From a virus, in the IMG/VR virus record IMGVR_UViG_3300046167_000390, positions 1-27,752 of that record: a stretch of 27,752 nt of DNA. One strand, written 5' to 3'. Made by a program: the position numbers and the translations under genes. Below, piece after piece: positions 819 to 25,372 of the stretch. Every line of letters starts with the position of its first letter. The first letter of the stretch is position 1. The notes beneath the pieces were generated by a model. It did not search any database. It saw only the letters and a program-made list of their open reading frames with translations, and was not told the DNA's origin.

Positions 819-1219
819 AATAATTCATTTATTGGTAATATAATTCCTTTACTCGCCATATAATCGCCCCCTTTTTTATCTCGGTTTGTATTTATGTATT
901 TTCTGCATTTATCTTTTAAATCCTTTGTTTTTATAATATATAATTTATCTAAATATATATAATATATATCAGCTTTAGTAGCTGCAATCCCACTCGGTTT
1001 TCCATTACAGGAATACTCTACATAAAAATTCCCTGTTAATTTATATTGTGCATCGCTTTTAACCTCAACACCTATTTGCAGTTCTGGTATATATATATCC
1101 CAATCCAAACAATAACCATCTATTATATATGCTTTAGGATATTTTTGTTGAATATGCAATAACGCTTTCTTCTCATACTGTTTGCCATTTTTTAAATCGT
1201 GCTGAAATTTATTTGTCAT
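815..1219 (-). CDS. PD-(D/E)XK endonuclease, possibly resolvase-like
   Basis: A 134-residue protein. The active-site pattern is clear: D41 in LDWDIYIPE, then E52-V-K54 in IGVEVKSDAQ, followed by a lysine-bearing strand and helix (SGIAATKADIYYIY, 76-89). This arrangement is shared by Hjc-like resolvases and several phage structure-specific nucleases of similar length. It lies between the sigma factor gene, which it overlaps by four bases, and the MRLGDLVYY gene. A role in resolving branched DNA during replication or before packaging is likely but not shown; a homing-type or degradative nuclease is the alternative. Confidence 0.6.
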   Translation of the reverse strand: MTNKFQHDLKNGKQYEKKALLHIQQKYPKAYIIDGYCLDWDIYIPELQIGVEVKSDAQYKLTGNFYVEYSCNGKPSGIAATKADIYYIYLDKLYIIKTKDLKDKCRKYINTNRDKKGGDYMASKGIILPINELL

Positions 1220-10923: not shown

Positions 10924-11295
10924 TTATATAATTATATACTCGTTGTCATAACTATCCTCAACTGTATATTCGTTTTTGTTTATACTATAATAATCGTTGC
11001 TTATTTGATTAACCGTTTGGTCTGTACAAAATACCTTGTCCCTATATATTACATCTCTGTAACCTAATCTTTGTTCTTGGGATTTTTTTAATTCCAAAAT
11101 ATAAAAATCGCCTTCTGTCAATGTGCCAAAATCAACTGTAAATTGTAAATAGTCCCCACTTGTTGTAGGTATAGTTTCAACATCTATAGTTGTATTAGTG
11201 CTTTCACTTGTTAATTCTACTATAATATCATCAACATCAAATGTTCTTGGTATGATATTAAAAGTTTTATTTCCGCTTGTTTGTATGAGTTGCAT
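10924..11295 (-). CDS. Conserved hypothetical virion protein
   Basis: A 123-residue strand-rich protein (FDVDDIIVELTSES, YLQFTVDFGTL, DFYILELKKSQ) ending in the acidic YTVEDSYDNEYIII. The sequence YRDKVFCT before the tail is one I associate with flavobacterial phage structural regions. It starts inside the 33-bp late motif, being the first gene of the portal unit, and follows a terminator at 11341-11369. A minor head or tail protein is likely from position. Confidence 0.55.
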   Translation of the reverse strand: MQLIQTSGNKTFNIIPRTFDVDDIIVELTSESTNTTIDVETIPTTSGDYLQFTVDFGTLTEGDFYILELKKSQEQRLGYRDVIYRDKVFCTDQTVNQISNDYYSINKNEYTVEDSYDNEYIII

Positions 11296-11325
11296 ATTAA
11301 TATATAAACAAAACTAAAATATTTT
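11293..11325 (-). promoter_or_regulatory. 33-bp late motif, copy before the portal unit
   Basis: On the minus strand AAAATATTTTA, five bases, then GTTTATATATTAATATG, whose last three bases are the start codon of the 11295 gene. It matches the copy at 23290-23322 at every position outside the five-base spacer. It directly follows a terminator, which favours a promoter role. Confidence 0.6.
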
Positions 11326-11340
11326 GTATTGTATGGGTAT

Positions 11341-11369
11341 AAAAAAAGGGCTACCTAAAAAGATAACCC
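11341..11369 (-). terminator. Intrinsic terminator after the tail-tube-like gene
   Basis: On the minus strand GGGTTATC and GGTAGCCC pair over eight positions, two as G-U, across a 6-base loop, followed by seven T. It ends the 11392-11919 gene, and the late motif of the next unit begins 16 bases further on. Confidence 0.85.
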
Positions 11370-11391
11370 TTAAATTTAAAACCCTAAATTA

Positions 11392-11919
11392 TTATGCAGT
11401 TGGGTCAATCTGTGAAGCAGAAGCATCAGCAGTAATTACTGACCCTGTTACAAAGTATGGTGGCGCAGTTTCCTGTGCTACCGCTGTAATTGTATATCCT
11501 GTTAAATCTCCCATTGCAGCACCAGTTACAATAGTACCTCCATTTACATCAGCGCCGTGTTCTAATCCCATAACGAAATAGTTTCCGTTGTAGTCCTCTA
11601 TTGCGATGTGTGGTCTTGCGTGTGCAATTAGTTTTAGTTCTTCTTGTGTCGCTTTGTCTTGGAATGTCAAAGTTAGGTTAAGTGTACTCTCATAGAAAGT
11701 TGTACCATTCTCTCTTGAAGAATTGATAGCGGTTTCTAAAGAAGAATTACCCTTAACATCAAATTGAAACCAATCAGGTGTACCGCTAAATGCAGTAATT
11801 TCACCTGCAGCGATGGTTGCATCGCCTAAAGTACCAAAATCAGCAAAGTAAATAGTTTTAATACCACCTACTGCACTTTTGCAAGGTACTTTTCTTCCTG
11901 TTGTTAATGAACAAGCCAT
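11392..11919 (-). CDS. Putative major tail (tube) protein
   Basis: A 175-residue protein starting MACSLTTGRKVPCKSAVGGI, with alternating strands and NSSRENGTTFYESTLNLTLT (63-82), ARPHIAIEDYNGNYFVMGLE (101-120) and GAAMGDLTGYTITAVAQE. This is a family I associate with flavobacterial phages as an abundant structural protein. The mixed beta architecture and the strong terminator right behind fit a highly expressed tail-tube protein. It lies just after the capsid gene, a usual place for tail tube genes. A head decoration protein is the alternative. Confidence 0.5.
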   Translation of the reverse strand: MACSLTTGRKVPCKSAVGGIKTIYFADFGTLGDATIAAGEITAFSGTPDWFQFDVKGNSSLETAINSSRENGTTFYESTLNLTLTFQDKATQEELKLIAHARPHIAIEDYNGNYFVMGLEHGADVNGGTIVTGAAMGDLTGYTITAVAQETAPPYFVTGSVITADASASQIDPTA

Positions 11920-11940
11920 ATTTTTAAAGTGTTTTTAAAT

Positions 11941-11968
11941 AAAAAAGGGTAGGGTAATTCCCCCACCC
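11941..11968 (-). terminator. Intrinsic terminator after the capsid gene
   Basis: On the minus strand GGGTGGGG and CCCTACCC form an eight-pair stem with one G-U pair and a 6-base loop, followed by six T. It starts 25 bases after the extended capsid stop at 11993 and lies 22 bases before the next gene start (11919), with no clear promoter between them. Partial termination would set a capsid to tail-protein ratio. Confidence 0.8.
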
Positions 11969-11992
11969 CTTTCTACGTTGATTAATTAATTA

Positions 11993-12043
11993 TTATACAG
12001 TTCTGTAAACGATGTCAGATACTTGAGCATACTGTACACCAGC
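11993..12043 (-). CDS. Out-of-frame C-terminus of the capsid protein
   Basis: After MRFT the capsid frame reads CWCTVCSSI and stops. One base further, the other frame reads AGVQYAQVSDIVYRTV and stops at 11993. The MRFTAGVQY junction is what the capsid family would be expected to show, and removing one C of the CC pair at 12045-12046 restores it, giving 310 residues. See the capsid entry. Confidence 0.6.
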   Translation of the reverse strand, partial: AGVQYAQVSDIVYRTV

Positions 12044-12926
12044 AGGTAAATCTCATTACTACTCTTACATTCATACTTCCGTTTATTTCGGCTTGGTCAA
12101 TCACACGCACCTCATTCATATCATTGAGTAAACCTGTCCCAAAGAATAAGTTTGATTTTTCAGCAGCGATAATAGTACCGGCAGCAGCACCTCTTGCAGG
12201 TACTACAGGAATACCATCAAAGAAAAGGTTTCCTAATACTTGGTTGTTTCCTTTGTTTTCATAACCTGCAGCACCTTGTCCACCAGATTGAAAACCACCC
12301 AATGAACGTGTATAAGCACGAATAACATCAGAAGCTGCGTAAATTAGCAAGTCATCGCTTCCGTAAACAGCAGTAGGAATAGCATCTACAACAGCGCCAA
12401 GTTCAGAAACTACATTAGCAGATGTAATTGCAGCACCTGTCAAATCTTGCCCTGCAGGTAGGTCAGCATCTGTATCTAATTTAATTGAAAAACCATCAAA
12501 CTGTCCACTATCACCGCTATCGCCAGACCAAATATTTCTTTCTGTACGGTCTGCTACTTTTGCAGCAACGTGAGCCAATACAAAATCAGAGAAGTTTGCA
12601 GGTAGGTTATCGAAAGCACTAAAGCCCATTTGAGCAGCTTCCCAATCGCTATGCAAATCTTTCTTACAAATGTCAAGATTTACTTGAAATTCCTCTGGTT
12701 GTAGGATTTTTTCAGTTAAAGTTAAAGTTCCTTGTCCTGTTTGAAAATCACAAGTAGCGTCTTGAACGATATCGTCAGTAGATGCTTTCTTGATAACAGA
12801 CTTAAATTTAACATTAGGCATTACTGTAATAAGTCCTTTGTCTAATGTGTCAGCAGATAATAAAGCAGCAGCGATATACTTGCCACTAAATTCCCCTGCA
12901 TAAGTTGAAGTAATTGATACACTCAT
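12015..12926 (-). CDS. Major capsid protein (C-terminus frameshifted)
   Basis: A 303-residue frame for an HK97-fold-like major capsid protein. Indicators are its size, its place directly after the acidic scaffold gene, the terminator behind it, and the patterns ILQPEEFQVNLDICKKDLHS (75-94), AAKVADRTERNIWSGD (121-136) with an FDGF loop, and IPVVPARG near residues 240-247. Codon choice is richer in GCA and GCT than elsewhere, as for an abundant protein. The last nine residues (CWCTVCSSI) do not fit; the expected C-terminus continues in the next frame to 11993. Three Cys in nine residues after a Cys-poor protein is itself a sign of a wrong frame. Confidence 0.8.
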   Translation of the reverse strand: MSVSITSTYAGEFSGKYIAAALLSADTLDKGLITVMPNVKFKSVIKKASTDDIVQDATCDFQTGQGTLTLTEKILQPEEFQVNLDICKKDLHSDWEAAQMGFSAFDNLPANFSDFVLAHVAAKVADRTERNIWSGDSGDSGQFDGFSIKLDTDADLPAGQDLTGAAITSANVVSELGAVVDAIPTAVYGSDDLLIYAASDVIRAYTRSLGGFQSGGQGAAGYENKGNNQVLGNLFFDGIPVVPARGAAAGTIIAAEKSNLFFGTGLLNDMNEVRVIDQAEINGSMNVRVVMRFTCWCTVCSSI

Positions 12927-12950
12927 TTTATTTTAGTTTTTAGTTGTTTA

Positions 12951-13577
12951 TTAATTATTAAATTTTGCCATTACTCTATCTAAAGTACTCATTCTTCTAT
13001 TAGGTGCGATATTGAATTTAGATAAATTTTGTTTTGTTTCTGGGTTTGCCTTAATTGGCTCGGCAGCAGGTGCGTTTAGTTCTTCTTGTACTTCTTCTGG
13101 CACTTCGTTTAGTTCCACTTTTTCGTGTTTGCAAAGTTCCTCAGTTACAAGGTTGCCTAATTCATCTGCGCTTAAATCCTCTTTTGGCTCTAACATTGCT
13201 TTAATTTCTTCAAGCATTGATTTAACCTCTGCTAATTCTTCTTTAGTAGCATAAACCTCTTTTTCTTCTTTTTCTTCAAGTTCCACGTCTTCCGTTGCTT
13301 CTACTTCTTCGGTTTCTTCTTCTTCCGCTTCTTCGGTTTTAATCTCTGCAATTAAACCTTCTTCGGTTACTACTAAAATACGTCCGTCCTCTAATTGGTA
13401 TTCGCCAACAGGAACAGCTACTTTTTCATCTTCGGTAACAATAAAAATTTCCTTACCTGCTTCAAACGCTTCTGCCTCTAAAACAGTTCCGTTTTCTAAC
13501 GCTTGTTGTTCTAACTTAACTTCTTCGCTAAGGTTTAGAACTTCTTTGATTTTACTAATCATATCGTTCGTGTTCAT
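12951..13577 (-). CDS. Putative capsid scaffolding protein
   Basis: A 208-residue, strongly acidic protein. An N-terminal beta-rich part (about 22-80: LENGTVLEAEAFEAGKEIFI, VPVGEYQLEDGRILVVTEEG) is followed by a Glu-rich stretch (82-107), a coiled-coil-like helix (108-135) and a basic end (RRMSTLDRVMAKFNN) of the kind that contacts capsid protein. The layout and the position immediately before the capsid gene fit an assembly scaffold. It starts inside a copy of the 33-bp late motif. Confidence 0.65.
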   Translation of the reverse strand: MNTNDMISKIKEVLNLSEEVKLEQQALENGTVLEAEAFEAGKEIFIVTEDEKVAVPVGEYQLEDGRILVVTEEGLIAEIKTEEAEEEETEEVEATEDVELEEKEEKEVYATKEELAEVKSMLEEIKAMLEPKEDLSADELGNLVTEELCKHEKVELNEVPEEVQEELNAPAAEPIKANPETKQNLSKFNIAPNRRMSTLDRVMAKFNN

Positions 13578-13607
13578 ATTAATATATAATGGTTAAAAAT
13601 TAATTTT
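13575..13607 (-). promoter_or_regulatory. 33-bp late motif, copy before scaffold and capsid
   Basis: On the minus strand TTATATATTAATATG ends on the scaffold start codon and is preceded, at the same five-base spacing, by the A/T-rich block AAAATTAATTT. The last 13 bases match the copies at 11293 and 23290. Confidence 0.55.
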
Positions 13608-13613
13608 GTATTT

Positions 13614-14141
13614 TTAAATAAATTTACGCAATCTATCTCTTAATTTAGAAAAAGAAGCCGTAGGAATTTTAACACCTAAATCTTTTGCGGCTTTTTCTGC
13701 TTGTGCAATTAACTTATCAAAAGCAGTAATATTTTTTTGTGCAGATTTTATTAATGGCTTGTTTTTGTTTTCAAATCTTTCTATATTTTTTTGGTAATCT
13801 TTCATACTCCTCCCGTATGACTTGAAAGCATTTTCTGCTCTTTGATATTCTTGCTCTGTACTTAAATATTCTCTTTTCAATTTAAAGTATTTAGCTTCTA
13901 ATTTTTCTTTATTTTTTTCTGCTCTTTGATAGTCCTTAAATGCTTCGCCTAAAGATTTTTTGTTAATAGATAAAATTCTATTATTTTCTTCTATTTGTTT
14001 TATTAATTCTTGTGATGGCTTTTGAAGTTTATTTAAATCGTCCATTACACCTAATTCTAATTTTTGCGTTGCAAGGTGTGTTTCGCTAAACTGTTTAATT
14101 GGCTCGTTAATATGCTTTAAAGCTTTTTTGTAATTTCTCAT
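13614..14141 (-). CDS. Basic coiled-coil protein of the head region
   Basis: A 175-residue protein, almost entirely helical, with heptad-like patterns from about 45 to 150 (EENNRILSINKKSLGEAF, KNKEKLEAKYFKLKREYL) and a basic C-terminus. Aromatic residues recur with YQRAE repeated at about 70 and 97. No family is recognised. Its place between small virion genes and the scaffold suggests an internal head or assembly protein. It is not the tape measure, which is the 596-residue protein upstream. Confidence 0.5.
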   Translation of the reverse strand: MRNYKKALKHINEPIKQFSETHLATQKLELGVMDDLNKLQKPSQELIKQIEENNRILSINKKSLGEAFKDYQRAEKNKEKLEAKYFKLKREYLSTEQEYQRAENAFKSYGRSMKDYQKNIERFENKNKPLIKSAQKNITAFDKLIAQAEKAAKDLGVKIPTASFSKLRDRLRKFI

Positions 14142-14160
14142 TTTATAGTTATTTAGTTAA

Positions 14161-14610
14161 TTATGCTTTTTTCTGAATTATAAACCACTCACTTCCATCA
14201 CTCCAAACATATATACCCTCGTATTCCTTATTAATCTGATAGTAGTTTGTTGAGCCATCTAATGTATCGCCACCGCTTGGTGTTAAATAAACCCTTGTGT
14301 TTGTGTTAAAACCACCGTTTGAAATAAATCTAATTGCTCTATTTGTGTTGTCCGATGCGCTTGGTAAATTAAGTGTCATATTACCACTTGCACCACTCCA
14401 CGTTAATTTTACAAGTTTGATATTTGAATACTCACTGTCTGAAAGGTTTACAGTTTGGTCTGCCGATACAGTTATGTGTGTAGGTACTAAATAATTTATA
14501 ATATCGTTTACTGTACCTTTTTTAGTAGTGTCACTTTGTACAAATACTAAATTTTCTGTACCATCTAAAGCGGTTGTATTGTCTAATTGTGTAATTTTTT
14601 TATCTGCCAT
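14161..14610 (-). CDS. Putative head-fibre-like structural protein
   Basis: A 149-residue protein. It opens MADKKITQLDNTTALDGTEN, the start pattern of many phage fibre-like and structural proteins (KITQL, then a region on loading or value definition), followed by a strand-rich part (VKLTWSGASGNMTLNLPSA, RAIRFISNGG) and GIYVWSDGSEWFIIQ. The second half looks like a short beta-structured fibre domain. It overlaps the CCDGS gene by one base. A head decoration or fibre role is inferred. Confidence 0.55.
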   Translation of the reverse strand: MADKKITQLDNTTALDGTENLVFVQSDTTKKGTVNDIINYLVPTHITVSADQTVNLSDSEYSNIKLVKLTWSGASGNMTLNLPSASDNTNRAIRFISNGGFNTNTRVYLTPSGGDTLDGSTNYYQINKEYEGIYVWSDGSEWFIIQKKA

Positions 14611-14822
14611 TACAATATAATTTTACTGTTATTCTCTTGTAGTATAAGGTCTGTATTTTCCTGTAATAAATAATCAAATTGTTTTGTTGTCGTACCTATG
14701 CCTTGCGCCCTTAAACTACCATCACAACATTTAATAGAGTAGGTATTGTCCTCACATAAACAAGCCCTGCGTCCACCTTTTGGACTTGTTCTACTTGGTG
14801 TAAAAAACTTTCTAAATCTCAT
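14610..14822 (-). CDS. CCDGS-AQGIG small protein
   Basis: A 70-residue protein with a basic N-terminus (MRFRKFFTPSRTSPKGGRRA), then CLCEDNTYSIKCCDGSLRAQ followed by GIG. The C-x-C...CCDGS-x-xAQGIG signature is one I recall as a recurrent mini-protein between head genes of Bacteroidetes phages. Four Cys residues at 21, 23, 32 and 33 suggest metal binding or a cross-linked structure. It is coupled through ATGA with the basic mini-protein upstream. Confidence 0.65.
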   Translation of the reverse strand: MRFRKFFTPSRTSPKGGRRACLCEDNTYSIKCCDGSLRAQGIGTTTKQFDYLLQENTDLILQENNSKIIL

Positions 14823-14947
14823 TTACCTTGTCCTATATATAGTTTCTTATAGTTCTTACTTGACTTTAATTGACTTGTTTTGCTTTTAGCGTGTATGCCT
14901 TTACGTCTTACCTTTTTGCGTTCTATTTTAACCGCTACTTTTCTCAT
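14819..14947 (-). CDS. 42-residue very basic mini-protein
   Basis: MRKVAVKIERKKVRRKGIHA followed by KSKTSQLKSSKNYKKLYIGQ-GK. Nearly half of the residues are Lys or Arg. The pattern GxHAKxK...SKNYKKxYxGQG is one I know as a small conserved protein in flavobacterial phage head regions. It overlaps both neighbours through ATGA. Such a charge suggests binding to DNA or to the acidic scaffold; the sequence does not tell which. Confidence 0.7.
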   Translation of the reverse strand: MRKVAVKIERKKVRRKGIHAKSKTSQLKSSKNYKKLYIGQGK

Positions 14948-15990
14948 TTAATAGGAATACAATTAGGTACTAATTTACCATTTTTCATTTTCATTCCGTA
15001 TTGCTCATATCCTGCGGTGCAAGGTGCTTTAAGGTCTATAAGGTCTAACTCTTTTAATTTGCTTAATGCCCAACGTTTACCTGCCTTACCACCCCATAAT
15101 AAATAAGAGATAGTACCACAAGCGGTCGTGTCGCTTTCATCGTAGTATTCTTCTGCTCTTGACAAATAAGAATACATACGCTTGATAGTTTCTACGCTAA
15201 TAGGTTTGCCCTGTGCTAATTGTTGCGCCCTTACCTTACCCACTTGCGTTGCACATTTGTTGTTTACTTTTTCGTTAAGTTCTAAACCTCTCTTTGCGTT
15301 GTTTCTAACCGCTTGTGGATAATCGGTATAGCTTTCAAGTATCATTTTCTTACCACCCTTTACTCGCTTATCGTTTTTTATGATGGCTCGTATCTCGCTT
15401 AATAAATACTCGGCTTCGTCTTGGTCTATTTCTTTTAATAGTTCATCACTACTAAATTCGTTTATTTTTTCCTGTGGGCGTTCCATCTTATCCGCAAAAT
15501 AGCCCTCTATACTAAACCCTTTTACCTTACCTGTCTTTACAAACTCATTCCAAATTTGTTCGTTGTTTACCTTAACACTTCCAACCCACGTTCCTAATGG
15601 TAAATCCATTCCGTATTTTACCGATTTGTCGTGCACCTTGTCCTCTACCAACCAACTCTCAACTAATGATAGTCCGTTTATTTGGTATTGGTGTTCTAAG
15701 GTTGAGTTGTTTTGTTTACCTTGCATAAGGTACATTTGCGACGCTTTTAAGACAGTATCTTTTGAAAAATATATATAGTATTCATCTTCTCCGTTTCGTC
15801 TGTATATGGGCTTATTAGGTATTAATAACGCACCCATTAAAATACGCTTTTCTTTGTCTACTTCTGCAAGTTTAAATTCTTGACTTTTTAAAGCAATAAA
15901 ATCTTCTTCTATTGCAGGGTTTTCCACTACGCTAATAGCTTCAATACCTATTTCTTGTTCTTCGTCTAAAATTAGTTCTACTATTCGCAT
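14944..15990 (-). CDS. XkdF-type prohead protease with C-terminal domains
   Basis: A 348-residue protein. The first 170 residues match the XkdF-like serine protease family that processes capsid and scaffold: EAISVVENPAIEEDFIALK (17-35), the His-bearing STLEHQYQINGLSLVESW (96-113; H100) and TGKVKGFSIEGYF (153-165). Residues about 216-320 form a second domain common in Bacteroidetes phage head proteins (TDYPQAVRNNAKRGLELNE, ACGTISYLLWGGKAGKRWAL). The end (CTAGYEQYGMKMKNGKLVPN-C) is a third small conserved motif. It starts at a copy of the late motif and overlaps the tape-measure frame by ten bases. Catalytic residues are inferred, not verified. Confidence 0.7.
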   Translation of the reverse strand: MRIVELILDEEQEIGIEAISVVENPAIEEDFIALKSQEFKLAEVDKEKRILMGALLIPNKPIYRRNGEDEYYIYFSKDTVLKASQMYLMQGKQNNSTLEHQYQINGLSLVESWLVEDKVHDKSVKYGMDLPLGTWVGSVKVNNEQIWNEFVKTGKVKGFSIEGYFADKMERPQEKINEFSSDELLKEIDQDEAEYLLSEIRAIIKNDKRVKGGKKMILESYTDYPQAVRNNAKRGLELNEKVNNKCATQVGKVRAQQLAQGKPISVETIKRMYSYLSRAEEYYDESDTTACGTISYLLWGGKAGKRWALSKLKELDLIDLKAPCTAGYEQYGMKMKNGKLVPNCIPIK

Positions 15991-17771
15991 ATTATTATAT
16001 AATGTTTTTTAATTATTTTTGTATTTATAAGGGTCGCACCCTCAACAATATTGTTTTCTAAACTCTGTGCGGTTGTTACATCATTAGCTACAACATACGC
16101 CTGTACTGGCTCTTGTGTTTGTCCTGCTACCGCTTCTGCTAATTGACTTGTTTCTGTTGCGCCTACAATATTGAATTGTGGGGGTTGTGAAGCTGCGGTT
16201 GTTGTTGGTACGCTTCCGCCTCCTTTTCCACTACTGTCTACGCTTTTAATCGCTGCAATATTTTGCGCTGCCACAGCACCTGCTAATGCAGCTTGTACAA
16301 CAGGATAAGCAGGGAAGAAAGTTGTGATAGGCGATTTTTGTGCGGTTGTATATGCGTTCTGAACACCCTCAACACCACTAATTGTTGCACTTGCTAAAGC
16401 CATCGCTTTACCTATTTTACTGTCCTTACCTGCTAAATTTGCTATTTGGTCAAAAGTTCCTTTAGCATCTGCAAGTGTTTGTTCTTTTCTTAATCTCTCT
16501 AATTCTGCTTTTTCATTTATACTTTTCTTTTCTGCTTCGTCTTTTTGCTTTTGTAGTTCTAAATCCTCATCATTGAATTGCTTGTTTAATTCTAATAATT
16601 GTTCATCATAAACCCTTTTAGCTTCTAATAATAAATTATTTTTTTCTACCTCATCAGTAACCTGTCTGTCAATTATTTCTTTTTGTTCTTCATATTGTTG
16701 TAATAATTCAGCGCGTTGTATATCTCTTTCGCTTTTACCTATAAGAGCAAGTTCTTTTTGTATTTCTTTTTGTTCTCTTAATAGAGAATTTACATTTGTT
16801 TGTTGCTCACTTCTAAATCCTGTTATTTGTGCTTCAATAGCTGCTTGTTCGTTTAACGCTTCTTGATACGCTTTTTGAAGTTCTATACTTTCTTTGTTTT
16901 TCTCTAATTCTGCCGCCGCTGCTGCTACTAATATTGCAGCATTGTCTTTCATCGCTTTTTCTTGGTCATCTAAAACCTTTGCTAAGTCCTCATTAGCTTT
17001 TATCCTTTCTTCAATACTTTTGCTTTCGTCATCTCGTATCTGTCTTAAACTTTCTGCTTGTCTATCGTATTTTTCAATTAAACCTTGATTTTTAACCGCT
17101 GCCAACTCGGCTGCTTTTGCTAATTTTACATTTTCCTTTGCGGATTTTATAGTTTCGGTTGTATAGTTTTTTATTGCCTTTGTTGTTTTTTCTACAAACT
17201 CTGCGCCTTTATCAAACGTATTATTTACACCTGTTAATACGTCTAAACTCTCTTTTCCTGCGCTTTTAACATCATCTAAAGCACCTGCAAAATCGCCACT
17301 AAATACTTTCTTAACCGCACTTGCTAAATATCCTAAAGTATCTAAAAAACTTTCAAATCGTTCAACAATATTTGCCTTAATACTTTCACCTAATTCCTTA
17401 ACACTCTCTAATGGGTTTTCAAATATTGCTTTGAAAAAATCTACAACTTCACCACCATTATCAACAACGAAATTTACAAAGTCATTAAAGGCAATACTTA
17501 CCGCTTCAAATACAGTATTAAACGTATCTGCAACCTTTTGGTTTTGATTAAATACTTCTGCAAGTTTACCAAAAGCTGCGATAACCAAACCAATACCTGC
17601 TGCTTTTATTGCTGTGCCTAAACCCTTAAAACCTTTGCTTATACCACCTACGCCTTTTTCAGCTTTAATAGCACCTTTGTCTAATTGGTTTAATTCGTAA
17701 TTAATGTTTTCAATACCTTTTACAGCATCTTTACTATCTACATTAATATCTATTGTTTTTTCTATTGCCAT
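15981..17771 (-). CDS. Tail tape measure protein
   Basis: A 596-residue protein. The N-terminal part reads IDINVDSKDAVKGIENINYE, then GLGTAIKAAGIGLVIAAFGKL (50-70). The middle (180-440) is a long helical coiled coil rich in Glu, Lys, Ala and Gln. Residues 455-510 are small and hydrophobic (GKAMALASATISGVEGVQNA, PVVQAALAGAVAAQNIAAI), and the end QPPQFNIVGATETSQLAEAV is typical of Bacteroidetes tape measures. By the usual rule of about 0.15 nm per residue the tail would be near 90 nm. The last residues after VEGATL are odd and may be out of frame (see findings). Confidence 0.75.
   Translation of the reverse strand: MAIEKTIDINVDSKDAVKGIENINYELNQLDKGAIKAEKGVGGISKGFKGLGTAIKAAGIGLVIAAFGKLAEVFNQNQKVADTFNTVFEAVSIAFNDFVNFVVDNGGEVVDFFKAIFENPLESVKELGESIKANIVERFESFLDTLGYLASAVKKVFSGDFAGALDDVKSAGKESLDVLTGVNNTFDKGAEFVEKTTKAIKNYTTETIKSAKENVKLAKAAELAAVKNQGLIEKYDRQAESLRQIRDDESKSIEERIKANEDLAKVLDDQEKAMKDNAAILVAAAAAELEKNKESIELQKAYQEALNEQAAIEAQITGFRSEQQTNVNSLLREQKEIQKELALIGKSERDIQRAELLQQYEEQKEIIDRQVTDEVEKNNLLLEAKRVYDEQLLELNKQFNDEDLELQKQKDEAEKKSINEKAELERLRKEQTLADAKGTFDQIANLAGKDSKIGKAMALASATISGVEGVQNAYTTAQKSPITTFFPAYPVVQAALAGAVAAQNIAAIKSVDSSGKGGGSVPTTTAASQPPQFNIVGATETSQLAEAVAGQTQEPVQAYVVANDVTTAQSLENNIVEGATLINTKIIKKHYIIICE
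15988..16020 (-). promoter_or_regulatory. 33-bp late motif, copy before the protease
   Basis: On the minus strand ATTATATAATAATATG ends on the protease start codon, with AAAAATAATTA at the conserved five-base spacing upstream. It differs from the consensus TATATATTAATATG by two positions. It lies within the last codons of the tape-measure frame as it stands. Confidence 0.45.
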
Positions 17772-17902
17772 TTTATTTCTTGTTTAAGTGCCTTGTAACC
17801 CTCTTTTAGTGTTGTAGGTAATTTGTGTTTACCCTGTGCTATGCGGATATTTTCCGTTTCGCCATTAACGTATTTTAAGCTATCTAATATTAGTTTTATC
17901 AT
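17762..17902 (-). CDS. 46-residue mini-protein before the tape measure
   Basis: A basic frame MIKLILDSLKYVNGETENIR with TLKEGYKALKQEIKWQ at the end. Its start overlaps the stop of the 858-residue tail gene (TAATG) and its 3' end overlaps the tape-measure start by ten bases, so it is embedded in a chain of coupled genes. No family is recognised. It might be a small assembly factor for the tail. Confidence 0.55.
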   Translation of the reverse strand: MIKLILDSLKYVNGETENIRIAQGKHKLPTTLKEGYKALKQEIKWQ

Positions 17903-20478
17903 TAGTCTGTTGTTGCGGTTAATGTTACTGGAAATGAATATGCTTTATCTCCATCAATGTCGTATCGTGCGCTTACACCTATCTCATAAGTTGTTCCACT
18001 TTCTAATGGGTATATTTCAAGCGATAGTAACTCGTCTGGCGTCGCATAAACCCCACCATCTACATAAATTCTCGTAGCATCAGAGCCACTTGCAGGAAGC
18101 CAGCTTATAGTTATTGAGTTGCTTGATGTAGAACTGACTTGAACATTTGTTGGTCTGTCTAAATATGCAAATTGTTCGTTTGCTACGTTACTCGCAAACT
18201 CTGGTTTATTATATAATTCTAACTTTGATTTGTTGGTTAATAGGTTTGTTTTTATGCTATTAATTCTAAATACAGTATTAGCAATTATAAGTTGGTCATT
18301 TAGCTTTAATTGTGTTATTATGCTTAAAGGCAAATAAGCGTCTACTTTCAACATTCTACCTTTTCTGTCAAAAACTGTTTGCACATAATCCAAATATCCT
18401 TCTTCAAATAAATTAGTAGACGTTGAAGGGTTTGGTAATTCGCCAAACCACTCATCAGCTTCTAAACCAAAATTAAGTTGCATTTGAGTGTTCCAACCCC
18501 AAGTAAACCCACCAATGTTTGATGGTCTACGATAATTACTTGGTGTGCTTCCGTCTATTGTTAGTTCACTATTCGTATTGGCTTCATAATCAATAAAGAA
18601 CAATAATGGTTCACCTATTGTTGGTTCAAACTTTTTATCTAAAAAAGCACCCTGTCCAATATATGTTAGGTTACCATCTTCATCGCTTAAACGTTCGTAC
18701 ATCATTTTTTCAAAAGGTATTTCTACTTTGTAAACGCTTCCGTCAAACTCTGCACTTGTTTCTGGATAATTTTCTTGAGAAAAGGGTATACCTTGTATTT
18801 CGTCTGAATACTGAACTAAAAATGTTTTTTTGCTTTTAAATTTAAACTCCATTTCTCTGTGTGGGAATATCCTTTCAACAGTTGAAGTAGACATATCCAC
18901 ATATTTTGTAATATCATAAGGCGTTCCTGTTCCATCTGCGCCACTTCTTATAAAAACACTTGATAATTCAACTTCAATATTATCGCCATCTTTATAAACA
19001 ACACAATTAAACATTTTAAACAAACCACTTAAAAAGTCCATTACCTTCATTTCTGGCATTTGTTTACTAATGATAAAATCATTTTGTACGTTAGGACTAT
19101 CAACATCATAAACCGCTGTCCATTGTACACCACCGAAAGAAATCCTTTTTGTAATTTCTAATCTTTGGGTCATCGTTATATTGCTATCCGCTTCCACTTC
19201 CAATGTAATGTCAAAAGGGTAGTTCTGGTCACTACCTATAAAATCAGTTTCTACTGAAACAGTACCGCTTGAATTACTAAACGTTTCGTTTGCATAAGTG
19301 TAATTATTAAAAGAATTAATTATCCTTACAGTAAAATCTTGCGTTGTTGAAGTCGTTACAACTGCTTTTATTTTGTATCTATTAACAGATGCAGGTGGCT
19401 GCCAAAACAAAGTTCTTACATCTTCTGATACACCACTACTCAACCCTGCATTAAACGTAAAATTATTAGGGCTGTCATCAATGTTTCTAAACCTATTGCT
19501 TGAAATTCTTGTACCCCCACCCTCTTCTGCATTTGATACAAAACCCTCATTTTTATGCAACCACATATACATATTGCTAAACTTCACTGAATTAAAAAAC
19601 CCTGTTAAATTTATTTGCGGATAAGTGTTGTTAATTGCGTCAATAATTGCTCTACATCTTATTGCAGGTTTTAAATCAACCCAACTTAGTTCAGTGTCTG
19701 TTATATTATCCCTATATCCTGTGGTGGCATCTGGATAACGCATATTTTTACTGTGATGAATATTAGGCACAAGTATATCTATGCTCCCATAAGTAGAAGT
19801 AATTGAACTATCAGAGGCGGTAAAAAAGTTGGTTATGTTAGCTTGAGTATAATCAAAATTCAACGAACTTGGATAATTAAGACCAGACAATTTTGTATCG
19901 CCTAACACCTCTTTAAGTTCCACTGCATCGCCATAAAACACCACTTTATAAGCGTGTGCCTTATTGTCTTTTAATGATACGCTTTGAAATTGTATTTGTC
20001 CTTTTTTGTAATCTATTCCGTTAAGCTTTATTATAGCATCGTGCCTGTACCTTGCATCAAAACTGTTTTCAATATCAAAGTTCTCATAGTGTCTAAATAG
20101 TTTGTTATTTAGCTTAGAAGCAGGAAGATTAAATTGTTGGCTAAAAGGCGTGAACACTTTTTTAATGTCTTTTATATTTAAAACACTATCTGTTATTACG
20201 ACGCTTTCATCTTCAAACAAATCTGCTCTGAAATAATCGCTTTCAATTCTGTATAAATCTGCACTTGGGAATAAATCAGCAGAAATAGTTAATTGTGTAT
20301 CACTATCAATTGCGGTAATTTTTACCGTTTCTTGTGTTCTAAGGTTTGTAACAATATCGCCTACCTCAACAATCTTAGTAAATTCTGCTTGACTGTCTAT
20401 AAGTTTATTTGTCGCAAAACTCTTAGCAGAGCCATTAATTCTTTTATAACCTTTTATGTAAAGTTCTATTATCTGCAT
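17902..20478 (-). CDS. Large tail protein with C-terminal fibronectin III domain
   Basis: An 858-residue protein, mainly strand-rich. The middle part contains NDFIISKQMPEMKVMDFLSG (465-484) followed by a Cys-Val strand, like a baseplate hub or distal tail protein. Residues about 770-858 are a fibronectin type III domain (DRPTNVQVSSTSSNSITISW, YPLESGTTYEIGVSARYD). The tail assembly genes around it support a tail-tip or receptor-proximal role. Its start is fused to the previous gene's frame through TAATG at 20476-20480. It is the largest gene in the window. Confidence 0.6.
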   Translation of the reverse strand: MQIIELYIKGYKRINGSAKSFATNKLIDSQAEFTKIVEVGDIVTNLRTQETVKITAIDSDTQLTISADLFPSADLYRIESDYFRADLFEDESVVITDSVLNIKDIKKVFTPFSQQFNLPASKLNNKLFRHYENFDIENSFDARYRHDAIIKLNGIDYKKGQIQFQSVSLKDNKAHAYKVVFYGDAVELKEVLGDTKLSGLNYPSSLNFDYTQANITNFFTASDSSITSTYGSIDILVPNIHHSKNMRYPDATTGYRDNITDTELSWVDLKPAIRCRAIIDAINNTYPQINLTGFFNSVKFSNMYMWLHKNEGFVSNAEEGGGTRISSNRFRNIDDSPNNFTFNAGLSSGVSEDVRTLFWQPPASVNRYKIKAVVTTSTTQDFTVRIINSFNNYTYANETFSNSSGTVSVETDFIGSDQNYPFDITLEVEADSNITMTQRLEITKRISFGGVQWTAVYDVDSPNVQNDFIISKQMPEMKVMDFLSGLFKMFNCVVYKDGDNIEVELSSVFIRSGADGTGTPYDITKYVDMSTSTVERIFPHREMEFKFKSKKTFLVQYSDEIQGIPFSQENYPETSAEFDGSVYKVEIPFEKMMYERLSDEDGNLTYIGQGAFLDKKFEPTIGEPLLFFIDYEANTNSELTIDGSTPSNYRRPSNIGGFTWGWNTQMQLNFGLEADEWFGELPNPSTSTNLFEEGYLDYVQTVFDRKGRMLKVDAYLPLSIITQLKLNDQLIIANTVFRINSIKTNLLTNKSKLELYNKPEFASNVANEQFAYLDRPTNVQVSSTSSNSITISWLPASGSDATRIYVDGGVYATPDELLSLEIYPLESGTTYEIGVSARYDIDGDKAYSFPVTLTATTD

Positions 20479-20606
20479 TAACGTATGTTGTTTATCGTGT
20501 CAAACGCAAAATCTATTTCTATTGTGTAGTTTATTAGCTTGTCGTTTAAGTGTGTTTTGTAATTCAAACTGCTACTTGCTACGTTTATAGGAAGTGTTTT
20601 GTTGTT
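20478..20606 (-). CDS. Out-of-frame C-terminus of the 338-residue tail protein
   Basis: After GAACAACAAAACACTT the next frame reads TLPINVASSSLNYKTHLNDK and ends IDFAFDTINNIR at a stop that overlaps the next start as TAATG. Such exact coupling and the sensible protein argue that it is coding. Removal of one base in 20590-20607, for example in the A-run at 20597-20600, joins it to the upstream frame and yields 369 residues. It could also be read by +1 frameshifting. Confidence 0.6.
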   Translation of the reverse strand, partial: NNKTLPINVASSSLNYKTHLNDKLINYTIEIDFAFDTINNIR

Positions 20607-21588
20607 CTAACTCTATCCAACAATCTTCGCTTAATTGCATTTGCTTAAATACCTCGTTGTAAACCTCTGGATAAAACCCTGTATTTAGTGTTAGTTTTTC
20701 CGTACCGTTTTTAGTTAATATTTTCTGTTGGTGTCTACTTATATCATAAGCACCATTAACAATTATATTACGCTTAAAATCTTCCTTTTTAGTTGTTAGT
20801 ACCTCGTTTGTTCTTTTGAAAAACCATATATCTTGTAATGCGCCGAATTTATTTACAAACGTTACTTTATAAGGTTGGTATTTACACTCCTCTATATTGT
20901 CTACAGTTAGTTTAATAACACCATCAGTAGTATCTATGTATATCGTGTCAAAGTCAAACAATGTAAAGTCGTCTACAAACTCTTGTAAACATACGCTATT
21001 CTCAAACGTTCCACCGTCTTGTATTACTCTGTTTTCGTATTCGTCTGCACCATTTACACCATTTGTAATGTATTCTATTTGCTCATCACTTTCTGTGCTA
21101 CTTGTAACCGCCTTTGTGTATACTTGTTGTCCGTTTAGTTCGTATGTTACTTGTGTGGTCTTTGATGTATCTACAGGAATTGTTGCAGGTGCATCGTCTA
21201 ACTTTAATACCTTAGTATTTGACTGTAATAAACCACTATCATTCTGAGGGTTTGCTTCGTCCTCATAATAACCATAACCATCAAAACCTGTTAATTGTGT
21301 GTAGCTTGTAAAACTTCCTGCGCTACCTCGTATATAGTTTTTAGTTCTGTAGTCCACCCATACATTGGCACTTGAATAATCGCCATCAAAAGTTTGTAGT
21401 ATATAATCTCTAACTATCTCGCCTATTTCAAACGTTACATTATTACTTACAGCAAATGAGGTTAATTCAAACTTATTACTCCTATCGGTTGTTTGCGTCC
21501 CTGTGTATACATATAGTTCCATATCTACCTGTGATAAGTTGGTAGCACTTAGGTTTATGTAGTATGGGCTTCTTGCGTTTATTTTCAT
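20572..21588 (-). CDS. Tail protein (C-terminus frameshifted)
   Basis: A 338-residue frame. It starts MKINARSPYYINLSATNLSQ, with VDMELYVYTGTQTTDRS, a start I associate with large tail genes of flavobacterial phages. Strand-rich segments continue (VTFEIGEIVRDYILQ 51-65; VTYELNGQQVYT). YKVTFVNKFGALQDIWFFKR (239-258) is a notable conserved-looking core. The frame ends abruptly SYKRSK, whereas the last 36 or so residues of the family-like end lie one base out of frame (20478-20606). It overlaps the gp10-like gene by four bases. Distal tail or tail-tip component is most likely. Confidence 0.6.
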   Translation of the reverse strand: MKINARSPYYINLSATNLSQVDMELYVYTGTQTTDRSNKFELTSFAVSNNVTFEIGEIVRDYILQTFDGDYSSANVWVDYRTKNYIRGSAGSFTSYTQLTGFDGYGYYEDEANPQNDSGLLQSNTKVLKLDDAPATIPVDTSKTTQVTYELNGQQVYTKAVTSSTESDEQIEYITNGVNGADEYENRVIQDGGTFENSVCLQEFVDDFTLFDFDTIYIDTTDGVIKLTVDNIEECKYQPYKVTFVNKFGALQDIWFFKRTNEVLTTKKEDFKRNIIVNGAYDISRHQQKILTKNGTEKLTLNTGFYPEVYNEVFKQMQLSEDCWIELEQQNTSYKRSK

Positions 21589-22091
21589 TTCTTTATGTTC
21601 AGTTGTATTTGTTTCTCTAATCCTATTGAGTATGCCTGTACTAATTCATCTGGCAAACGCTTAAACGCTGCTTCAAATGGCTTAGTAAAAAACAAACTCG
21701 GCTTTATTCCTTTCTTATATACTGCTCTTGCTATTAAGTATTGTAAACTTTGTCTGCTTAAAAACTTACCGCCCTTGCCTCTTGGTGCAATACCTTTTCT
21801 CACTATCCATTTATCAAACGCCTTTCTTGGTGGCATTTTAGTTGTATAGGAATAAGGTGTATTGTATTTCTTTTCTGTTCCGCTTACCCCTCTGTCTTGG
21901 AACATACCATAATCAGCCATTTTAAACGCCATAGAAGTTGTATCTCCTTTTTGTGATACTTCGTACCCTAAACTATTATAAAGTTCCTTAGAAGCGTTCT
22001 TTTTGCCCTTAGTTAAGTTGCTTCGGCTTTGTTGTATAACGTACTTAGCAAACTTATTTAGTTCATCTCTTAAATACTTATCTGCTAACAT
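21585..22091 (-). CDS. HK97 gp10-like tail completion protein
   Basis: A 168-residue basic protein. The N-terminal helix (YLRDELNKFAKYVIQQSRSN) leads to KNASKELYNSLGYEV and FKMADYGMFQDRGVSG (54-69), a pattern reminiscent of HK97 gp10-like proteins that act at the head-tail joint. A basic segment (MPPRKAFDKWIVRKGIAPRG) and SLQYLIARAVYKKGI-KP follow. It lies between the tail terminator-like gene and the large tail genes. The family call is by resemblance. Confidence 0.5.
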   Translation of the reverse strand: MLADKYLRDELNKFAKYVIQQSRSNLTKGKKNASKELYNSLGYEVSQKGDTTSMAFKMADYGMFQDRGVSGTEKKYNTPYSYTTKMPPRKAFDKWIVRKGIAPRGKGGKFLSRQSLQYLIARAVYKKGIKPSLFFTKPFEAAFKRLPDELVQAYSIGLEKQIQLNIKK

Positions 22092-22555
22092 ATATCTATA
22101 TCGTTCTTAACAAACACATTAAACGTTGCACTCCACCCTGCTAAACGATTATCAAACCTTTCGTAAAATGGCTCTAATGTTGCATCGCCATCTAATTGGT
22201 ATTGGTCGTTATATAGTGTGCCTTTTCTAAGCACCATTACTAATTTGTTTAGAACAGCCAATTGTGTGTTTAATATATCTTGTTCATTGTTGTTTCCTCT
22301 GAATATATCACTATTAGCTTCTTTGCTCTCATCTACTATGTCCATAGCTAAAATACTAATGTTAAACGTTAGTACCTGTTCCTGTGTTGTGACGTTGTTT
22401 ATGATTATATGACTAAGTGGGAATATACTTTGTTTAGCTAAATCTATGTCGTATATATCGCCTGTTGTAACGGTGTTTACATTTACATCTTCTAATAATG
22501 TTCGTTCTATTGCTGTAGTTAATAAATAAAATCCTCTTATACCTATGTTGCTCAT
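22085..22555 (-). CDS. Tail terminator-like protein
   Basis: A 156-residue protein. It starts MSNIGIRGFYLLTTAIERTL and contains the strand HIIINNVTTQEQVLTFNISI. It ends with DATLEPFYERFDNRLAGWSA followed by TFNVFVKNDIDIC. That ending (ExxxERFxNxLAGW, then strand, then xxDIC) is typical of a small protein near the tail chaperone in flavobacterial phages and suits the tail terminator fold. Position next to the chaperone supports this. No catalytic motif is present. Confidence 0.5.
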   Translation of the reverse strand: MSNIGIRGFYLLTTAIERTLLEDVNVNTVTTGDIYDIDLAKQSIFPLSHIIINNVTTQEQVLTFNISILAMDIVDESKEANSDIFRGNNNEQDILNTQLAVLNKLVMVLRKGTLYNDQYQLDGDATLEPFYERFDNRLAGWSATFNVFVKNDIDIC

Positions 22556-22561
22556 TCTATG

Positions 22562-23292
22562 CTATTTAAATTTGCTTTTTATTTGTCTTGCCTCTATTTC
22601 GTTTTTTTCTTTAGTGTATGTTAGAAATGTCAAACATTCGTGTACTCCTAATTTAGTGATATGTTCAAACTTTGTAACATCTCCGTTAGATAGTCCATAG
22701 ATGCTGTTGTACCACCCCCATTTGGCATTGAAGTTAGATACTCCGCTAAGGTCTGCTCGTTCTTCTTGTCCAAACAGTTCAGCATAGCTATCGATAAGTC
22801 CTTGCCTAAATTGTAAAAAAAAACAACTGCACCTAATACAGCATCTAAAGGCATATCCTTTGCTATTTCGCTTGTGTTAGGGTCATACTCTTTTATCGTA
22901 TATCTATTGCCCTGTCTGTGTTCTATTGGTCTGTATAGTACGTTTACTGCTCTGTGCAAATTGTCGTTATCGCCAATAAAGGTATCTAAGTCCACATACT
23001 CGCCAAAACTCATATCCTCAAGCGATGGGATAAACCCATACTCAACACCGTTTAATTTGAACATAGATATTAGTTGATGCTTAGTGTCGAACATACCGAT
23101 GATGATACTACATATCTCTACTATGTCTGTAGCTTTCATATTTCGCACCACTATTGGTGGCACGTTGCAAAATATCTCAATGGTCTTTAGTTGTAGGTCT
23201 GTTTCGCTTAGTCCCTCTAACTTTGCATATTCTTGATACTGTCCTAAGGTTATCTCGTTTAGGGTTGTCGGTATTCTTAAATTTACATTCAT
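22562..23292 (-). CDS. Tail assembly chaperone with -1 frameshift product
   Basis: Two products can be read. The unshifted frame gives 214 residues and stops at 22648. At codons 158-159 the run of nine T (22815-22823) offers the heptamer T TTT TTT, a canonical -1 slippery site. A -1 slip yields 159 shared residues plus 84 from the other frame: LQFRQGLIDSYAELFGQEER and on through KWGWYNSIYGLSNGD to a stop at 22562, a total of 243. The added segment is a compact domain with WGWY and EARQIKSKFK. This parallels the lambda G/GT tail chaperones. The gene sits after the large terminase and starts inside the late motif. Confidence 0.7.
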
Positions 23293-23322
23293 ATTAATAT
23301 ATAAACGTTTTTAAAATATTTT
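23290..23322 (-). promoter_or_regulatory. 33-bp late motif, copy before the tail chaperone
   Basis: On the minus strand AAAATATTTTA, five bases, and GTTTATATATTAATATG ending on the start codon of the tail chaperone. It overlaps the terminase stop by two bases and fills the 28-base gap. The match to the copy at 11293-11325 is exact outside the spacer. Confidence 0.6.
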
Positions 23323-24529
23323 AGTGAACAATATACTTACCTCTATTTGGGTTTTGTAATTGATAACCTACAGCGTACCTAACCGCATCTATTAAGTGAT
23401 TATACTTATCTATTGGTGTGTTTGATTTGCGTTCCAACCAACGATAGTTATTTAGTTCTTTGATGAGGTTTGTGCTGTCTGGACTTACAACAAGGTCGTA
23501 ATCTTGTAGTAAACTAATTCCGTACGTTACACTCCCCTGTCCTTTAATTGATGGCTTTACACTACACCCTTTTGCTTTTAGTTCTGTTATTAATCGTGGC
23601 TCTGCGCTATCGCCTATTATTAAACCATCTCTTGCGTGTTTTAAATTAAGTTCAGCTATTTGTGAAGTTGTTAATCTTGGTAGGTATACGCATTCCTTTA
23701 AGTATATTGTTTTAGTGCTTGTATCTATGTTTGTTTCTATTAGTGTTGTAGGGTCTGCTGCAAAACCGTAATCTTGACCCCATACGCTTACACCCTTTCT
23801 TTTAAACTCGCCTATTGTCCAATTATTAAATATAACCCCCTCTGCTTTGTTTAGCCACGCACCTAACATTTGTTGTTTGTACTTCTCTGGTCTACGTTGT
23901 CGCATTTGTTCTATCTGCTCTATGTAGCTTTTAGAGAGGTTGTCTATGTTGTCTAAGTATGTGGTGTGTATGTAGGTTGTATTGCCTTTGGTTATATTAC
24001 TTCCTTCCTGCACCCCTCTATCCTCAAAGAAACGTTTGTATATAAAATGCTCTTTAGTTGTTGGGTTTAGTATTAGGATAACCCTGTTTTGTTTACCTTG
24101 TTGTCTTACCGATAAATCAATAGTATCAAACTTCTGTTCGTCTGTTAGTTCTTCCGCTTCATCAACCACCCAAGTTGTAATACCTTGTAATGATTTTAGG
24201 TTTGCGGTTTGGTCGCCACTTGAGGTTTTTATACCTCTGAATATTATCTTACTTCCTGTCTGTTTGTTTATTATCTCGTCTTTAGTTATGTGGAAGTGTT
24301 GTGTAAATCCAAACAATTCTAACTTGTCTATAAATTCTGGTATGATGGATATGTATGCAGAAGTTAGGGTGTAGCGTGTAAACAGTATTGTATGTCCTGC
24401 TTCGTATGTTAGCATCACCAAAAGGGCGTTCACTGAAAATGACTTACCAGACCCACGCCCACCACTTACAATATAATACCTACTGTTTTCGCCTACAATA
24501 GTTTTGTATTTGTTATGTACGTTAATCAA
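23321..24529 (-). CDS. terL: Large terminase subunit
   Basis: A 402-residue packaging motor and nuclease. The ATPase half has Walker A GGRGSGKS (23-30), Walker B TWVVDEAEE (119-127) and a coupling segment LILNPTT (152-158). The nuclease half carries the acidic triad of the RNase H-like fold at D253 (GQDYGFAADP), D307 (LIIGDSAEPR) and D381 (YNHLIDAVRYAVGY). The architecture matches the PBSX/Terminase_3 group. It overlaps the small subunit gene by eight bases. Length and all key residues are intact, in contrast to the frameshifted portal and capsid. Confidence 0.92.
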   Translation of the reverse strand: MINVHNKYKTIVGENSRYYIVSGGRGSGKSFSVNALLVMLTYEAGHTILFTRYTLTSAYISIIPEFIDKLELFGFTQHFHITKDEIINKQTGSKIIFRGIKTSSGDQTANLKSLQGITTWVVDEAEELTDEQKFDTIDLSVRQQGKQNRVILILNPTTKEHFIYKRFFEDRGVQEGSNITKGNTTYIHTTYLDNIDNLSKSYIEQIEQMRQRRPEKYKQQMLGAWLNKAEGVIFNNWTIGEFKRKGVSVWGQDYGFAADPTTLIETNIDTSTKTIYLKECVYLPRLTTSQIAELNLKHARDGLIIGDSAEPRLITELKAKGCSVKPSIKGQGSVTYGISLLQDYDLVVSPDSTNLIKELNNYRWLERKSNTPIDKYNHLIDAVRYAVGYQLQNPNRGKYIVH

Positions 24530-24791
24530 CGAATTTAATTAAATCTCTAAAATTGATGTTTAAGCCCTCTGAACTGTTTATGTCTACACTATCTTTTGGT
24601 TTGCCATACCTATAACCTAAATACAGTTGTAACGCTCTCATATCGCCTTTAGCTACTAACTCGCCTAACTTTGACAATGCTTCGTCTTTGTCTATTATAG
24701 CGTCTAAGCGTTCTATTAGTTTTTGTTCCTGTGCCTTTGGTTTTCTTCCTGCGCCTTGTCTTGCGCCACCATTATTTTTTCTTTTGTCCAT
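24522..24791 (-). CDS. Small terminase subunit-like protein
   Basis: An 89-residue protein starting MDKRKNNGGARQGAGRKPKA, an N-terminal pattern frequent in small terminase subunits, followed by helices (EQKLIERLDAIIDKDEALSK, ALQLYLGYRYGKPKD) and a short acidic tail. The subunit binds the packaging site and regulates the motor. It directly precedes and overlaps the large terminase. It is shorter than many relatives, so a minimal version of the DNA-binding domain is assumed. Confidence 0.7.
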   Translation of the reverse strand: MDKRKNNGGARQGAGRKPKAQEQKLIERLDAIIDKDEALSKLGELVAKGDMRALQLYLGYRYGKPKDSVDINSSEGLNINFRDLIKFVD

Positions 24792-24796
24792 AATTG

Positions 24797-24819
24797 AAAA
24801 AAGATTGTTTAATCAATCT
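24797..24819 (-). promoter_or_regulatory. Hairpin in the terminase leader
   Basis: On the minus strand AGATTG and CAATCT pair across a 6-base loop and are followed by five T, between the late motif (24817-24849) and the small terminase start (24791). It could be a weak terminator or attenuator, or a palindromic operator. The stem is only 6 bp and A/T-rich. Confidence 0.4.
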
Positions 24820-24849
24820 ACTAATATATAAACATAATTATATTTTTTT
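24817..24849 (-). promoter_or_regulatory. 33-bp late motif, copy before the terminase
   Basis: On the minus strand GTTTATATATTAGTAGA with AAAAAAATATA at the five-base spacing. The end differs from the other four copies and contains no start codon; the ATG of the small terminase lies about 26 bases further on. This separates the motif from a start codon and argues for a promoter function. Confidence 0.5.
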
Positions 24850-25372
24850 AGCAGAGTACAGGGTTTTTAACAGGTCTGTTTAATGTAGCACCTTTTACTT
24901 CTTTTATTTTCTTTTGTGGTTTAGTAGTTGCTATTAATTTGTTGTATACCTTTAATCTTGTGTTTATAAAGTTTTCTAATGTGTTATCCTCCCACTTGCT
25001 TACTATGTCTATTAGGTCGTTTATTAGTGCTTCTTTATATGTCTTAGGGTTTTGGTTTTTAAGCGTATCTGCTATTGGCTTTATTTTCTTTTTAGTTGCA
25101 CAGGGTTGTATAGGTAAATCAAAGTCTTTTATTATTTGGTTGAATACCCTTTTATCTCGTTCCTGTAATACTTTAAAATCTCTATAATGATATAACGCTG
25201 CATCGTGTTTTAGCCCTATTTCTTTCCCTAATGACTGAAACGTATATCCTAATTCTCTTGCAAGTCTACAATACACTTTTCTTGCGTATGAGTACTCACG
25301 TTGTCTATTGCGTTCTGATATATCAAATTTATAGTATTTGTTTAGTTCTTCTTTAAGTTGTTGTAGTGTCAT
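24848..25372 (-). CDS. DnaA domain IV-like HTH protein
   Basis: A 174-residue basic protein. Residues 28-68 (YSYARKVYCRLARELGYTFQ, SLGKEIGLKHDAALYHYRDF) resemble the DNA-binding domain IV of DnaA: a helix with R-x-V...L, then a helix-turn-helix in which IGLKHDAALYHY stands where DnaA has GRDHTTVxHA. There is no ATPase domain, so it is not an initiator by itself. The basic C-terminus (KKIKPIADTL, KPQKKIKEVK) may contact DNA. Its gene immediately precedes the terminase unit, so it could be a replication factor, a packaging-site binder or a late regulator. Confidence 0.6.
   Translation of the reverse strand: MTLQQLKEELNKYYKFDISERNRQREYSYARKVYCRLARELGYTFQSLGKEIGLKHDAALYHYRDFKVLQERDKRVFNQIIKDFDLPIQPCATKKKIKPIADTLKNQNPKTYKEALINDLIDIVSKWEDNTLENFINTRLKVYNKLIATTKPQKKIKEVKGATLNRPVKNPVLC

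Follow-up and report, generated by a model that had tools for sequence, protein, structure and literature searches.

The window analysed here, the whole 27,752 nt of IMG/VR virus record IMGVR_UViG_3300046167_000390, stems from a tailed marine phage of flavobacteria. Its nearest named relatives, judged by the terminase (terL), are the Nonlabens (Persicivirga) phages P12024L and P12024S (56%), and a 67% portal match comes from a contig assigned to the bin of an uncultured Polaribacter. The window carries five copies of a two-block motif, all on the minus (coding) strand and at the coordinates given in the original prediction. As had also been claimed, they head late groups, standing before terS, the first tail gene, the protease gene, a scaffold-like gene and the portal unit, and the same genes are preceded by the motif in relatives (Table 1). 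Our comparison of related phages makes it very probable that these copies are late promoters read by a phage-encoded sigma factor resembling extracytoplasmic function (ECF) sigma factors, and that most are positioned to begin transcription at the start codon itself.

Table 1 Predicted late promoters and associated features of the window. All features lie on the minus strand; promoter assignments, +1 positions and leaders are predictions.
Feature	Position	Elements and predicted start	Remarks
Late promoter 1 (terS-terL)	24817-24851	−35-like 24851-24846; −10 TTATATA 24831-24825; +1 = A at 24819	28-nt leader to terS ATG at 24791; based on sequence and conservation of −35, −10, T at −1 and purine at +1
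Late promoter 2 (first tail-block gene, probable tail chaperone)	23290-23324	−10 23304-23298; +1 = A of ATG at 23292	predicted leaderless
Late promoter 3 (XkdF-like protease)	15988-16022	−10 16002-15996; +1 = A of ATG at 15990	predicted leaderless
Late promoter 4 (scaffold-like gene, then capsid)	13575-13609	−10 13589-13583; +1 = A of ATG at 13577	predicted leaderless
Late promoter 5 (gene before portal)	11293-11327	−10 11307-11301; +1 = A of ATG at 11295	predicted leaderless
Intrinsic terminator	11339-11371	stem 11371-11346, tail TTTTTATACC	directly upstream of promoter 5
Phage ECF-like sigma factor	1216-1710		164 aa, regions 2 and 4; identified by profile and structure matches; covaries with the promoter triplet
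terS	24522-24791		predicted under promoter 1
terL (Terminase_3)	23321-24529		predicted under promoter 1
First tail-block gene	22648-23292		PHROG of unknown function, presumed chaperone; predicted under promoter 2
XkdF-like protease gene	14944-15990		PF14550; predicted under promoter 3
Scaffold-like gene	12951-13577		role suggested by place before the capsid gene; predicted under promoter 4
First gene of portal unit	10924-11295		predicted under promoter 5
Bac_DnaA_C-like helix-turn-helix (HTH) protein	24848-25372		weak PF08299 match; directly upstream of terS

A bipartite motif specific in strand and position

A weight matrix was built from the five copies and used to score both strands of the window. 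The copies scored 32-39, the runner-up site on either strand scored 8.8, and the top motif score in third-order Markov simulations (n = 100) never exceeded 18.9. The two-block architecture described originally was retained, whereas the upstream block had to be redrawn: it begins two bases further upstream and reads C[AT]AAAA rather than AAAA. In the second half the invariant core is TTATATA at positions −12 to −6, with GTTTATAT in three copies and CATTATAT in two. Several copies head late operons within one genome, as expected of late promoters served by a phage sigma factor. The copy before the portal unit directly follows an intrinsic terminator, which confirms an earlier observation, and promoter 3 is located within the 3′ end of the upstream open reading frame.

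To compare relatives, we used 238 loci (2.3 Mb) retrieved via terminase, sigma and scaffold proteins. Matches above threshold numbered 432 on the coding strand and one on the other strand, and in the long related records the sites precede the same five genes as in the window. An ATG-anchored form of the motif was found in 20 related genomes, with 73 sites on the coding strand, none on the other and four in reversed-sequence controls; it is therefore not encountered at random internal codons at an equal rate. The motif also keeps its place when its surroundings change. In three otherwise closely related genomes (G001-G003; L242-L247) the terminase shares only about 30% identity with the window terL, and the motif still heads the terminase module; in relatives with sequence inserted after terL, it remains beside the tail gene.

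The motif ends at a probable transcription start site

Four of the five copies adjoin an ATG, as originally noted, but the ATG does not belong to the motif, since in relatives the motif persists with the ATG displaced downstream by 12-37 nt. The terS leader measures 20-37 nt across relatives, and the ATG of the tail gene lies at the motif edge in half of them and 12 nt beyond it in most of the rest. When no ATG was required, the motif consisted of C[AT]AAAA (−32 to −27), NNNTATA (−12 to −6), T at −1 and a purine at +1. Sites aligned on the ATG showed, in all lineages, C[AT]AAAA or an A-rich core at −32 to −27, TAT[AT] from −9 and T at −1. At 25 nonredundant displaced sites, position −1 was always T and position +1 always a purine (A in 21, G in four), and from +2 onward the sequence varied; T at −1 with a purine at +1 was likewise found in all 31 terS sites of the CGT class described below. 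A pyrimidine followed by a purine is the typical look of a transcription start site. Since conservation at displaced sites stops at these two bases, the end of the motif looks like such a site.

Under the numbering of Mycobacterium tuberculosis SigH, position +1 of anchored sites coincides with the A of the ATG. In the anchored genes third codon positions vary far more than second positions from codon 2 on, and this coding pattern indicates that the ATG is the true translation start. Transcripts from anchored sites should therefore be leaderless. Promoters 2-5 and most anchored relatives also show the −10-like signal that leaderless genes have 10-12 bp ahead of the start codon, here TTATATA at −12 to −6.

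The terS leader holds a further feature, an inverted repeat GATTGATTAAACAATC that follows promoter 1 (24819-24792, minus strand). It is kept in relatives with several spellings (TTTGATTAATCAAA, CTTGAATAATCAAG and CAGTT...AACTG). An RNA hairpin was considered and rejected, as predicted folds did not surpass those of shuffled sequences (z −1.5 to +0.2); for this reason the repeat may act as DNA, for instance as a site for the terminase small subunit.

A phage-encoded ECF-like sigma factor

The candidate regulator is encoded next to genes for an ATPase and a VRR-NUC-like protein. Its sequence matched the sigma70-ECF model TIGR02937 over positions 15-165 of 165 (E 6.8e-9); the model is also matched by 28 of 29 aligned relatives. 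It has the layout of ECF group 4, that is, regions 2 and 4 only with a short linker. An AlphaFold2 model (predicted local distance difference test, pLDDT, 84.8) gave SigL, SigH, SigK and RpoE as best structure matches; the best Foldseek matches were mostly ECF sigma factors, and VIA Z was 8.8-9.3 over about 140 residues against 5zx2, 1or7 and 9m9d. The gene occurs in all 22 long related records, including all 11 that were chosen without using the sigma factor. Records shorter than 24 kb often lack it, and in two checked by gene order (G023, G024) it would fall past the contig end. No close cultured relative of the protein was detected at E 0.01 among 50,697 phage records.

The recognition helix of region 4 (YYSLYNTY) is nearly invariant, and so is the −35 element, across the promoter classes described below. 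The SLYNT codons of this helix read AGTTTATATAATAC, which is −10-like (3′ part of the window gene; L069 4273 and L036 606). This likeness is probably a coincidence, because the purine at +1 is missing.

The −10 triplet switches in step with sigma residues

The triplet at −12 to −10 differs between lineages, being TTA in the group of the window, CTA in a second group and CGT or CGA in others. These classes were assigned from ATG-anchored sites only, as the spacing from the A-block would misregister CGTTATATA sites as TTATATA. The triplets were identical across sites in 25 of the 27 genomes with at least two anchored sites, and because the change is concerted across the sites of a genome, it points to a trans-acting factor.

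We then calculated mutual information between the triplet and all sigma columns for 36 representatives, with no position preselected. The top column was N72 for −11, G68 for −10 and K75 for −12, the last tied with A156. These three residues, G68, N72 and K75, are the presumed −10 specificity positions and align with N88, N92 and R95 of SigH. The element in the SigH open complex is G-11 T-10 T-9, with N92 in contact with the −11 pair and N88 with the −10 base (PMC6411747). When columns of other phage proteins were scored as well, the sigma contact columns led or nearly led in each set.

The cultured phage P12024L offers an additional view of this relationship. Its sigma factor, gp35, carries N, D and R at the three specificity positions, which points to a C-G-T triplet. 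Six annotated starts (gp01, gp05, gp08, gp42, gp45 and gp46) have CGTTA at precisely −12, compared to 0.08 expected (p 2.9e-10, uncorrected), and CGTTA is the most enriched fixed-offset 5-mer at P12024L starts; CGTTATT at gp01 was known before the triplet was read from gp35, and the other five sites were found by later search. P12024S has the same six sites. In RAP44 and Harreka_1, which encode a related terminase, no sigma-profile match and neither of the motifs was found.

P12024L also contains a GTTTATATATTATTTATATAG-like sequence on each strand (L085 28 on the plus strand and the corresponding minus-strand site). Both resemble the motif of the window and misfit the late sites of P12024L; they are possibly early promoters or an origin-linked repeat.

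Proposed mechanism and alternative explanations

Based on these patterns, we propose that host core RNA polymerase would carry the phage ECF-like sigma factor during late transcription. Region 4 would bind the A-rich −35 element C[AT]AAAA at −32 to −27, region 2 would bind the −10 element TTATATA at −12 to −6, and RNA synthesis would start at the purine preceded by T. At promoters 2-5 this purine would be the A of the start codon, giving leaderless mRNAs, and promoter 1 would produce a leader of about 28 nt ahead of the terS ATG. The leading idea of the original prediction, a phage-specific promoter that yields near-leaderless transcripts and is used by this sigma factor, is thus supported by the comparison. 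It gains from the concerted turnover of the −10 triplet and its covariation with those sigma residues that are expected to contact the bases, as well as from the retention of T at −1 and a purine at +1 without an ATG, the terminator that precedes one copy and the matching layout of P12024L.

Several observations weigh against this assignment or set the protein apart from typical ECF sigma factors. The protein misses curated family cut-offs (NCBIfam, 35.6 versus 42.9 bits; Pfam Sigma70_r2, 21.8 versus 24), which is why we call it ECF-like and do not file it in any ECF group. The promoter hallmark of an older ECF classification, AAC at −35 and CGT at −10 (PMC8103513), is absent from the window, where the −35 element is C[AT]AAAA and the triplet TTA; CGT occurs only in some relatives and P12024L. 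There is also no sign of autoregulation, as the weight-matrix scan found only the five sites in the window and none before the sigma gene. The alignments to SigH and SigR that set the residue register are weak (E 0.9 and 0.18), albeit in agreement with each other and backed by the structure search. Two genomes have one deviant site each (GTA and ATA), and L331 breaks the residue pattern with N, I and E alongside CGT. Through shared descent, columns of other phage proteins attained normalised scores as high as 0.83 when sets comprised about 30 genomes, and one attained 1.0 in a 15-genome set. Finally, the sigma tree holds only five class changes (2-4 independent pairs, p 0.5-1), so that the covariation does not reach formal significance.

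Two explanations without a phage sigma factor fit the data poorly. The motif might be read by a host sigma factor assisted by a phage activator, for which the HTH protein is a candidate, given that its gene immediately precedes the terS promoter and shows a weak match to DnaA domain IV (PF08299, E 5.7e-5). We rate this as very unlikely. A homologue was detected in only 11 of 22 related records, compared to 22 of 22 for the sigma factor, and the motif is present in G001-G004, G006, G008, G017 and G018 with no HTH homologue detected; as it is missing in half of the related records, the protein was rejected as the regulator. Moreover, the covarying sigma positions are those expected to read the −10 element. 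The window contains 50 matches to the host −7 box TAnnTTTG where 47 are expected, which is chance level, and none of the five copies has this box in place, 4-5 nt before the start site. A host promoter of this type was therefore rejected, in line with the original prediction. Still less credible, in our estimation, is an action of the motif within the mRNA, whether as context of the start codon or as the translation enhancer that had been offered as the alternative. In its favour, four copies out of five abut the ATG, and an A at −3 acts as a positive determinant in Flavobacterium (PMC6847099). However, the form of the motif is unchanged when the ATG lies 12-37 nt away or the downstream gene is replaced, which leaves the enhancer unsupported. 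One copy stands just after a terminator, the motif is missing from 32 other gene starts in the window, 21 of which have A at −1, and a ribosome signal would not be expected to change its triplet together with a sigma factor.

A closer variant keeps the sigma-dependent promoter and moves the start a few bases off the predicted +1, so that leaders would be very short, or transcription would begin inside the ATG and another start codon would be used. Sigma factors differ by 1-2 nt in the distance between the −10 element and the start, and T at −1 is found in only two of the six P12024L late sites. By contrast, T at −1 and a purine at +1 are invariant at the displaced sites in the group of the window, and coding constraint from codon 2 on implies that the ATG must be transcribed. 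We consider such a displaced start unlikely, and prefer initiation by the phage sigma factor at the predicted purine.

Comparison with known systems

Phage sigma factors with their own late promoters are known from phiEco32 and 7-11 (PMC8948821), and leaderless genes have been described as well (PMC3160421). In phage 7-11, SaPh711_gp47 redirects host polymerase to bipartite promoters heading late groups (GTAAtg-(16)-aCTA), and the promoter sequence has diverged from that of a related phage at similar genomic positions (PMC8948821). These are enterobacterial phages, however, in which gp47 and phi32_gp36 are only 15% identical and the promoter layouts differ (PMC8948821), whereas the family of the window keeps one layout in which the −10 triplet switches with the sigma residues and most predicted starts coincide with the ATG. 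In phiEco32, middle and late genes are likewise under a phage sigma factor, phi32_gp36, with tAATGTAtA promoters (PMC8948821); these have a single element and gp36 has no recognisable region 4, in contrast to the bipartite motif and regions 2 and 4 found here. SigH (5zx2; PMC6411747) shares the two-domain fold and reads the −10 element by the equivalent positions N88 and N92, but is a cellular stress sigma factor with GGAACA/GTT promoters and very weak sequence similarity to the window protein. P12024L and P12024S (Inhavirus) also encode a Sigma70_r2 protein and have six late starts with CGTTA at −12 of the ATG; their sigma factor is only 28% identical, with other −10 letters and a −35-like AAAACAAA. 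In the leaderless 'TA-led' genes of bacteria, a comparable −10-like signal precedes the start codon by about 10-12 bp, although the housekeeping sigma factor is assumed there (PMC3160421).

A literature search on promoters of such phages retrieved no description of the window motif or of P12024L and P12024S promoters. Nor did we find, in the literature searched, the combination of sigma-read leaderless late promoters, their family-wide occurrence and a switching code. Of the transcripts predicted for Flavobacterium johnsoniae, 87% carry a leader longer than 10 nt (PMC6847099), so that leaderless late phage mRNAs would be unusual there.

Implications

Our analysis yields a predicted late-transcription code, in which sigma residues are tied to promoter bases, for an abundant and almost uncultured group of marine phages, and P12024L, cultured on Nonlabens (Persicivirga), is a system in which this code is testable. 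The pairs of sigma factor and promoter that switched in step form a natural series and provide material on the joint change of a regulator and all its sites. The data also raise the question of leaderless translation of late phage mRNAs in Bacteroidota. It may be speculated, with slightly less than even confidence, that a flavobacterial phage family has fused its late transcription and translation starts, produces leaderless head and tail mRNAs by means of a phage sigma factor, and comprises sigma factors and promoters that co-diverged into mutually exclusive codes. If true, late phage genes would be translated via a leaderless 5′-AUG route in hosts whose own mRNAs mostly carry leaders.

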